A stretch of 64,000 nucleotides of DNA. Origin: Novosphingobium ovatum (GTDB lineage Bacteria > Pseudomonadota > Alphaproteobacteria > Sphingomonadales > Sphingomonadaceae). Shown one piece after another: positions 48,251-50,179 of the stretch. Where the stretch lies: assembly GCF_009909235.1 (NCBI RefSeq), contig NZ_JAAAPO010000001.1, positions 186,001 to 250,000 on the forward strand, written 5' to 3'. Below the pieces are notes generated by a model. It did not search any database. It was not told the DNA's origin and worked only from the letters and a program-made list of their open reading frames with translations. The stretch's first letter is position 1; every line of letters begins with the position of its first letter. The translations under genes were made by a program, and so were the position numbers.

Positions 48251-48287
48251 GAAGGGCCACACCGGCATCAGCGCGGTATGGCCCTTC
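48251..48287 (-). terminator. hairpin, probable terminator of the micro-ORF transcript
   Basis: GAAGGGCCA (48251-48259) and TGGCCCTTC (48279-48287) pair perfectly, extended inward by ACCG/CGGT. It lies about 60 bases downstream of the micro-ORF stop on the minus strand. There is no U-run. Confidence 0.4.
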
Positions 48288-48347
48288 ACATGGTCAGCGG
48301 CCGGAAAGTGCCGCCCACGAAGCCTTTATCGCCAGGAAGAACAGGGA

Positions 48348-48404
48348 TTAGCGATAATGCCTCGCGCTGCGGATTGCCGACCTCTCTGCTGAACCATGAG
48401 ACAT
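48348..48404 (-). CDS. 18-codon micro-ORF with an extended Shine-Dalgarno
   Basis: The peptide is MSHGSAERSAIRSARHYR, basic and without a membrane segment. The reason for calling it is the 15-base string GAAAGGAGGTGATCC immediately upstream of the ATG (one base between). It is fully complementary to the 3' end of 16S rRNA, far beyond a normal ribosome site. Such a site suggests either a very highly translated small peptide or a regulatory leader or decoy RNA. It is too short for codon statistics. No gene follows it on this strand before the convergent SPOR gene. Confidence 0.45.
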   Translation of the reverse strand: MSHGSAERSAIRSARHYR

Positions 48405-48727
48405 CGGATCACCTCCTTTCGCGCTGTTGAGCCAAGAGCCGAAAGAGGCCGCCCGGACCGGGACGCATCACCGTCCGCGCGATCGGGCTGGGCCGCCATT
48501 CGACGGGGCCGGTCAGCACCGAAAGGCGCTGGGGCCTTGGCCACAATGTGTCGCATTCGCCCCTGCACAACAAGTCTTGCGGCAAAATATTTTGTCGTCA
48601 GAATGGAGTCTTCGCGCCGCAAAGGGGGCGGTGATTTGCGCCGCGCGTCAATGGGTTGCGCGCCCGCTCGGCGGTATGCGGCCGATTGCGCCGGGCCATT
48701 TATCAACAACCGTTGGGCTGAGGCGAA
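48405..48727. other. gap between micro-ORF and lipoprotein gene
   Basis: These 323 bases contain no convincing gene. The palindromic GGCAAAATATTTTGTC around 48580-48596 is much more AT-rich than its surroundings and, on the minus strand, precedes the micro-ORF by about 180 bases, so it may mark a promoter for that transcript. Confidence 0.3.
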
Positions 48728-49384: not shown

Positions 49385-50179
49385 TTGACCCACACTCCCA
49401 AGCCCAAACCCGCCGCCAAGATCCGTGTTGATCAGGCGCTGGTGGAACGCGGCATCGCCGAGAGCCGCGCGCGGGCGCAGGCGCTGATTTTGGCCGGCGT
49501 GGTGTTTTCGGGCGAGACCAAGATCGCCAAGGCGGGCCAGACCATCGCCGCCGACGCTCCGCTGGAGGCGCGCGGGCGCGACCATCCGTGGGTGTCGCGC
49601 GGCGGGATCAAGCTGGCCCATGCCATCGCCCATTTCGCGCTGGACCCGACCGGCGTCAACGCGATGGACATCGGCAGCAGCACCGGCGGCTTTACCGATG
49701 TGTTGCTGACGCATGGGGCGGACCATGTCTTTGCGGTGGATTCGGGCACCAACCAACTGGCGTGGAAGCTGCGTCAGGATCCGCGCGTCACTGTGCTGGA
49801 ACAGACCAGCGCCCGTATCCTGACCGCCGATCATATCACCGCGCCCTGTGCGTGGGTGGTGTGCGACGCCAGCTTTATCGCGCTGGCCAAGGTGCTGGAC
49901 GTGCCCTTGGCGCTGGCCGCGCCCGATTGCCGTCTGGTCGCGCTGATCAAGCCGCAGTTCGAGGTGGGGCGGGCCGAGGTGGGCAAGGGCGGCGTGGTGC
50001 GTGATCCCACGTTGCACGCGCGGGTCTGCGACGAGGTGCGCGGCTGGGTGGAAGGATTGGGCTTTACGGTCGATGGCATCGTGGAAAGCCCGATCACCGG
50101 ACCAGAAGGCAATGTCGAATTCCTGATCTCGGCATGGCGTGGCCGTCCGGTCGGGGCGGCAGGGGATGTGGCGGAATAG
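49385..50179 (+). CDS. tlyA: TlyA-family rRNA methyltransferase
   Basis: This 264-aa protein has an N-terminal S4 RNA-binding domain (RVDQALVERGIAESRARAQA) and an FtsJ-like methyltransferase domain (MDIGSSTGGFTDVLLTHGAD as SAM motif, LIKPQFE as part of the catalytic set). Relatives 2'-O-methylate rRNA. The start is a TTG at 49385; no ATG lies before the S4 domain. It is a single gene followed by a 361-base gap. Confidence 0.85.
   Translation: MTHTPKPKPAAKIRVDQALVERGIAESRARAQALILAGVVFSGETKIAKAGQTIAADAPLEARGRDHPWVSRGGIKLAHAIAHFALDPTGVNAMDIGSSTGGFTDVLLTHGADHVFAVDSGTNQLAWKLRQDPRVTVLEQTSARILTADHITAPCAWVVCDASFIALAKVLDVPLALAAPDCRLVALIKPQFEVGRAEVGKGGVVRDPTLHARVCDEVRGWVEGLGFTVDGIVESPITGPEGNVEFLISAWRGRPVGAAGDVAE

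Follow-up and report, generated by a model that had tools for sequence, protein, structure and literature searches.

Introduction

The dual-function small RNAs SgrS/SgrT, RNAIII and Spot 42/SpfP are known from other bacteria, and 6S RNA is known to mimic the binding site of RNA polymerase. Closest to the locus described here is the Caulobacter sRNA CC2171, held in Rfam as RF01867 and typed there, according to the model and its one-line description, as an sRNA gene. The Rfam 15 paper counts RF01867 among the structures that R-scape improved, and its entry there bears the number 1 (PMC11701678); a table row names MH_s33 of Mesorhizobium huakuii as RF01867 (PMC5596092). Shine-Dalgarno sites were reported for 24.6% of Caulobacter coding sequences, and ribosome profiling in the same organism showed that two previously predicted ncRNAs are translated, in a passage from which their names are absent (PMC4117421). 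In Staphylococcus aureus, extended Shine-Dalgarno sites are reported as a general feature of initiation (PMC13009471). A literature search by name gave PMC11701678 and PMC5596092 as the only relevant papers, and among the matches listed by name and topic there was no functional study of the CC2171/RF01867 RNA.

Here, we analysed a 64-kb stretch of DNA from Novosphingobium ovatum (64,000 nucleotides; hereafter the window), in which a micro-ORF on the minus strand is preceded by a long complement of the 16S rRNA 3' end. The preliminary description of this locus covered neither the fold around the ORF, nor the match to Rfam, nor the conservation. By its sequence, the element is a stand-alone structured small RNA.

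Results

A 15-base complement of the 16S rRNA tail

We located the Shine-Dalgarno site GAAAGGAGGTGATCC at positions 48406-48420 of the minus strand, where a single base (48405) separates it from the ATG (48404-48402) of an 18-codon ORF and GGAGG lies 7 bases from the start codon. Since the window's assembly shows no 16S tail, complementarity was judged on the 16S tail of another genome in the genus: its strand opposite 16S is ...TTAGAAAGGAGGTGATCCAGCC..., and the complementarity covers exactly 15 bases. Both the coordinates and this real 16S tail confirm the earlier claim of a 15-base complement one base before an 18-codon ORF. Chance had been called very unlikely, and the site is indeed far from it: GAAAGGAGGTGATCC has a single match in the window, no copy in 100 shuffles of the window, and no other exact copy anywhere in the assembly, where the closest sequences carry two mismatches. 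A remnant or antisense copy of 16S rDNA would account for the identity of the 15 bases with the opposite strand of the 16S tail. However, this identity breaks off on either side after exactly 15 bases, and the site is conserved together with a promoter block, the ORF and the fold. We therefore rejected such an origin, as well as chance, and give either next to no credence.

A divergent relative of CC2171

At curated cut-offs, an Rfam search of the whole window returned only a tRNA. In a permissive search, positions 48253-48428 of the minus strand matched RF01867 over its full length (model positions 1-159 of 159) with 46.3 bits, under the gathering score of 75, and an E-value of 1.3e-8 for the 501 bases searched. 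Across the class, RF01867 was found in 26 of 142 genomes at E<=0.001 and in 5 of 142 above the cut-off; among 14 named control genomes, only Caulobacter vibrioides had a match. The window's element and RF01867 share, in sequence and fold, the 5' core GAAAGGAGGUGAUCC-N-RUG-UCU-CAU, a closing helix from CAU to the 3' AUG, and the 3' hairpin. They differ at the start, where the window has ATG and MSHGS whereas RF01867 has GTG (in the model consensus) and VSHC, and also in the inner hairpin, in a bulge within the closing helix and in the long 5' leader of the window's RNA. Judged from these likenesses, the locus is a divergent sphingomonad branch homologous to CC2171, that is, a below-cut-off variant centred on a translation start. 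One sphingomonad genome (G091) holds Caulobacter-type MSHCH (L098/L160) as well as sphingomonad-type MSHGS (L117) copies, from which it appears that the two types may coexist as paralogues.

Conservation and distribution

A pattern of site plus ATG, allowing up to one mismatch, was found in 120 of 149 family genomes and 82 of 96 genera, singly in most genomes and doubly in eight, and its reversed control had no match in the 149 genomes; the matches include non-elements, as in G028 and G085, where the place differs from that found by the RNA model. We read 91 of the 120 loci (90 and the window), and the exact 15-mer was present in 86 of the 91, a count that is favoured by the pattern. A second search used a model, R1, which was built on 35 loci from codon 7 to the terminator hairpin and omits the initiation site. 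R1 matches 118 of the 149 family genomes and 30 of the 31 genomes of the genus, own genome included. The 39 R1 loci that were read consist of nine family places missed by the pattern plus 30 from the genus, one of which is the window's own, and the ribosome site with its ATG was seen in 38 of them. None was recognisable in L362, which may be a degenerate copy; its genome, G803, carries a second R1 place. The conservation in close relatives proposed as a check on the site was thus found by both searches, in loci that are related by descent, so that the counts are not independent events.

The exact 15-mer occurs in 22 of the 38 R1 loci with a site, GAAAGGAGGTGA followed by CC occurs in 15 (13 of these one base shorter), and one locus differs otherwise. 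GAAAGGAGGTGACCGATG, shorter by one base, replaces the 15-mer in several close relatives, and the contiguous complement to the 16S tail is only 12 bases in several relatives. Because the 15-mer is inexact in many R1 loci, it is the strong site with its ATG that is conserved, and not all 15 bases are required. A site one base shorter, GGTGACCGATG, was observed in several genera (L328-L330, L332-L336, L343, L348, L358, L365 and L366). Its presence in some genera where other members keep GGTGATCCGATG suggests repeated loss.

The joint core AAGGAGGTGATCC-N-RTG-TCTCAT, with up to two mismatches, was detected in 56 of 386 alphaproteobacterial genomes. In a phylum-wide draw, with classes split by hand, 42 of 113 alphaproteobacteria had the joint core compared to none of 186 genomes of other classes. 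At up to three mismatches it was found in 13 of 14 own-family genomes and in none of 46 genomes from other families of the same order; either its distribution is patchy or the copies in these families have diverged, although the element is present in more distant orders. Hosts among the matches listed include Sphingomonas, Novosphingobium, Erythrobacter, Sphingobium and Methylobacterium, as well as Bosea, Microvirga, Brevundimonas, Azospirillum and Roseomonas.

Promoter, transcript and neighbouring genes

Upstream of the site on the minus strand, we found the promoter block CAAGnCTTG (48571-48579), a motif recurring in relatives, in which CTTG is the putative -35 element. Further upstream lies an A/T-rich stretch with the palindrome CAAAATATTTTG (48583-48594, minus strand), and A/T-rich stretches in relatives were comparable as judged by eye. 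Of the 91 family loci, 70 have CAAGnCTTG within 230 nt upstream, whereas 100 mononucleotide shuffles gave a mean of 0.23 and at most 2. A second motif, CTTG-N14-18-GAnTCA, is present upstream in 67 of the 91, again with a shuffle mean of about 0.2. The window has the former without the latter. GANTC is the motif of the CcrM methylase. The GAnTCA that stands 14-18 nt behind CTTG in those 67 loci contains GANTC, and cell-cycle control is possible there.

With its start placed from the promoter block, the 5' leader would be about 125 nt long (48421-48545, minus strand); it includes CCTCTTTCG, which can pair with the Shine-Dalgarno site. The leader varies in length and sequence, down to about 15-25 nt in some relatives. 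At the other end, a terminator-like hairpin, GAAGGGCC...GGCCCTTC (48251-48287, minus strand; recognised by sequence and fold), directly adjoins the closing helix of the RNA and is without a long T run behind. The AT-rich palindrome and the strong downstream hairpin that had been noticed earlier are thus both located, and a transcript of about 300 nt, again counted from the promoter block, is plausible. A short independent transcript, as had been proposed, is supported by the conserved promoter block, the covarying structure, the terminator-like hairpin and the lack of a fixed downstream gene.

Neighbouring genes were surveyed at 266 loci with enough flank, some of which were fetched twice. The upstream gene was read as lipoprotein-like at 88 of the 266, and a TlyA-like gene lies further upstream on the opposite strand at 45. 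In the window, the upstream gene had no Pfam match, and positions 49385-50179 of the plus strand encode a TlyA-like rRNA methyltransferase in which Pfam finds an FtsJ domain and, below its cut-off, S4; this neighbour is possibly a matter of mere synteny. Downstream, a putative branched-chain aminotransferase gene follows on the same strand at 42 loci and the other genes vary. Together with the terminator-like hairpin after the ORF, the aminotransferase gene is what would be expected if the micro-ORF were the leader peptide of a transcription or translation attenuator for a downstream gene. Nevertheless, neighbours differ among loci and the window's own downstream gene, for a TPR/SPOR protein, is convergent, so that the leader function suggested in the preliminary description is unsupported; for the window we rejected an attenuator, and we consider this reading very unlikely.

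The micro-ORF is maintained but its peptide is not

The micro-ORF, MSHGSAERSAIRSARHYR, comprises 18 codons from ATG to TAA (48348-48404, minus strand; TAA at 48348-48350), as delimited by translation and by comparison with relatives. Among 259 distinct loci the start codon was ATG in 167, GTG in 90 and TTG in 2, a tally biased by the fact that most of these loci were found with patterns containing RTG; the stop tally is unbiased. In frame 0, the first stop falls at codon 14-30 in 248 of 259 loci; the two remaining frames reach 66 of 256 and 93 of 258. By type, 129 of 134 CATGG-type and 119 of 125 other-type loci have their first in-frame stop in this interval. The CATGG type consists of the sphingomonads and five Azospirillum-type loci, and the latter are its five exceptions, with 56-59 codons. 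A stop before codon 14 was found in frame 0 in none of the 259 loci but in 95 and 59 loci in the other two frames (frame +1, 39/134 CATGG-type and 56/122 other-type; frame +2, 21/134 and 38/124, respectively). Stop identity varies: across 98 distinct 18-codon ORFs, TAA was used in 56, TGA in 31 and TAG in 11. In the 91 family loci read, the ORF begins with MSHG in 89 and is 15-25 aa long, with 18 aa in 71. The frame is broken behind codon 6 in at least two loci (L020 and L025).

Third codon positions were the least variable in the 98 ORFs, and the synonymous fraction of single-base codon differences was 0.21 in frame 0 compared to 0.35 and 0.41 in the other frames; two smaller other-type sets (25 and 17 ORFs) gave the same outcome, in a codon-position test that is confounded by RNA structure. 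Since stop and frame are constrained and yet the amino acids are not conserved, an ORF of about 18 codons is maintained and the peptide is not. It is probably translation itself, rather than the peptide, that is under selection. Two simple readings were rejected on these tests, namely a purely protein-coding one, because the codon-position test goes against peptide conservation, and a pure structure without an ORF, against which the stop-position test speaks.

An ordinary small mRNA, whose product would be an abundant micropeptide of mostly 18-26 aa, could explain the strong initiation site, the constrained ORF length and the partly conserved residues ([MV]SH, plus a W in the other type), and is in keeping with the 56-59 aa secreted-looking protein that follows the same site in Azospirillum and at a small number of further loci. 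The low variability of third positions and the low synonymous fraction in frame 0, seen in all three sets, count against it, as does the overlap of many conserved residues with the initiation region or predicted RNA pairing. As an unconserved amino-acid sequence makes a functional peptide less likely, we regard this explanation as improbable; of the abundant peptide suggested earlier, the maintained ORF stands and a conserved sequence does not. The secreted-looking proteins behind this kind of site (e.g. MSHGAKPV...) were observed at L219, L248, L261, L124, L121 and L167, including Azospirillum, and a Pfam search of three of these 56-59 aa proteins gave no match at E<=0.01.

The ribosome decoy of the preliminary description is kept as a rival: a non-coding ribosome-binding RNA, mimicking an mRNA, would hold 30S subunits as a decoy or a store, and the ORF would be incidental. 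The complementarity of the site to the 16S tail, the unconserved peptide and a stable structure from codon 3 on all agree with such an RNA, which would require very high abundance. The position of the in-frame stop and the absence of early in-frame stops, both far outside what the other two frames show, favour translation over pure decoying, and we judge this rival unlikely.

Fold and covariation

The 191-nt element has a predicted folding energy of -97.1 kcal/mol (folding z -5.8), and the predicted whole transcript has a folding z of -5.1. In the predicted fold, all on the minus strand, a closing helix joins CATGGTTCAGC in codons 3-6 (48388-48398) to GCTGACCATG (48289-48298), the first two bases of which compete with a local hairpin, GCGGC...GCCGC (48297-48314). 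An inner long hairpin (48316-48366), supported by covariation, has the stop codon at the edge of its apical loop. In addition, GGTCGG (48377-48382) has two possible partners, CCGAT at the start codon and CCGGCC close to the 3' end, and is invariant in alignments A1 and A2 save for its first base in one A1 sequence.

When the drawn structure was evaluated on 55 sequences of one subgroup, 98.0% of its cells were paired compared to 91.8% after shuffling. Changes on both sides were seen in 16 pairs (7.0 shuffled) and 92 cells (21.0 shuffled), and sliding the partners by 1-3 columns dropped pairing to 22-53% of cells. This support comes from the inner hairpin, where 14 of 15 pairs have changes on both sides, and from the local hairpin, where 2 of 5 do. 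RNAalifold, run on the same alignment, paired the site and start region and left out the closing helix. Neither this helix nor the pairing of the start codon with GGTCGG varies within the 55 sequences, where they can therefore give no covariation signal. Among 126 other-type loci, a closing-type helix reached p<=0.05 in 46 and p<=0.01 in 13; most of these helices are CATTGTC/GACAATG, and the sequences differ in some loci.

Predicted masking of the initiation site

In the full-length predicted fold of the window's RNA, the site pairs with CCTCTTTCG in the leader. Across loci, the predicted paired fraction of GGAGG is 0.74-0.78, compared to 0.67-0.68 for all bases, and GGAGG is mostly free in only 13 of 259 predicted folds; the ORF is the site's main predicted partner in only 61 of 259. 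The best internal duplex of the site was stronger than in shuffles, with a mean z of -1.28 in the SHC group (40/91 below -1.5), -1.23 in a mixed group (16/35 below -1.5) and a weak -0.72 in the window's own type, CATGG (16/135 below -1.5). A duplex with the 16S tail is predicted at about -30 to -32 kcal/mol versus -15.6 to -17.5 kcal/mol for the best internal one.

At 71 of 126 other-type loci, CCAG stands at the junction of site and start, and CTGG[AG]N follows at +20 to +66 in 57 of these 71, where 7.9 were expected and 200 shuffles reached at most 15, for a tail-like motif that was chosen after inspecting the loci and in loci that are related. It lies in one reading frame in 53 of the 57, with spacings that step by three, a further point against an incidental ORF. 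The motif often reads CCTGGATCnTCGCCTC; in this form it is complementary to the site and similar to the 16S tail, CTGGATCACCTCC. This 16S-tail-like piece could mask the site in the 57 loci, as modelled; the CCAG group comes mostly from other orders, and tail-like masking is weak in sphingomonads. In a further group of ORFs, which start with MSSE..., MSNE... or the like (L102, L112, L137, L144 and L161), a different partner for the site is possible, namely GGAGCAnCCTCC or a close variant located around +51 to +56. Overall, masking is a common prediction of the folding models, with lineage-specific partners.

Discussion

Comparison between genomes shows, at the level of sequence, that the element is conserved and structured and that its frame and stop are constrained. 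In our preferred reading, which we hold to be about equally likely to be right or wrong, the element is a switch RNA that masks itself, responds to ribosomes and has its micro-ORF translated. Its very strong initiation site would open an 18-codon ORF that runs through the first half of the fold. In the resting fold this site would be masked by the RNA itself and would open solely on strong pairing to the 16S tail. A ribosome translating codons 3-18 would then break the closing helix and expose the 3' half, so that the ORF would be translated to remodel the RNA. The RNA would thereby sense, or switch in response to, initiation-competent 30S subunits instead of supplying a functional peptide, and its candidate outputs are the exposed 3' half, RNA stability and ribosome sequestration.

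A bolder form of the switch reading, which is speculative and on the doubtful side, extends to the whole class. Here the RNA would combine the 16S-tail complement with an internal imitation of the tail, CUGGAUCnUCGCCUCC, within the ORF in many lineages. The RNA copy and the real tail would compete for one site, and the RNA would report or buffer free initiating 30S subunits, as a '6S RNA of the ribosome' with a translated reset.

The RF01867 family seems to reach further across Alphaproteobacteria than the cut-off reveals, and a translation start seems to lie at its centre. This makes its function testable, since a peptide, a decoy and a switch predict different behaviour of start, stop and site mutants. 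If it is true that the RNA senses initiating ribosomes, it would add a new layer of translation control in a class where Caulobacter, a well-studied member, has Shine-Dalgarno sites at a minority of its genes.

Like SgrS/SgrT, RNAIII and Spot 42/SpfP, the element is a small structured RNA with a short ORF. Unlike in these dual-function RNAs, it is the initiation site that is conserved here and not the peptide, and the window's RNA is without a known base-pairing target. The likeness to 6S RNA would lie, by analogy, in the idea of mimicking the binding site of a core machine, which here would be the ribosome and not RNA polymerase. The extended sites of S. aureus and the window's site have in common a long pairing with the 16S tail near the start codon; in contrast to S. 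aureus, the window's assembly has one exact site of this kind, and it lies within a structured RNA (PMC13009471).
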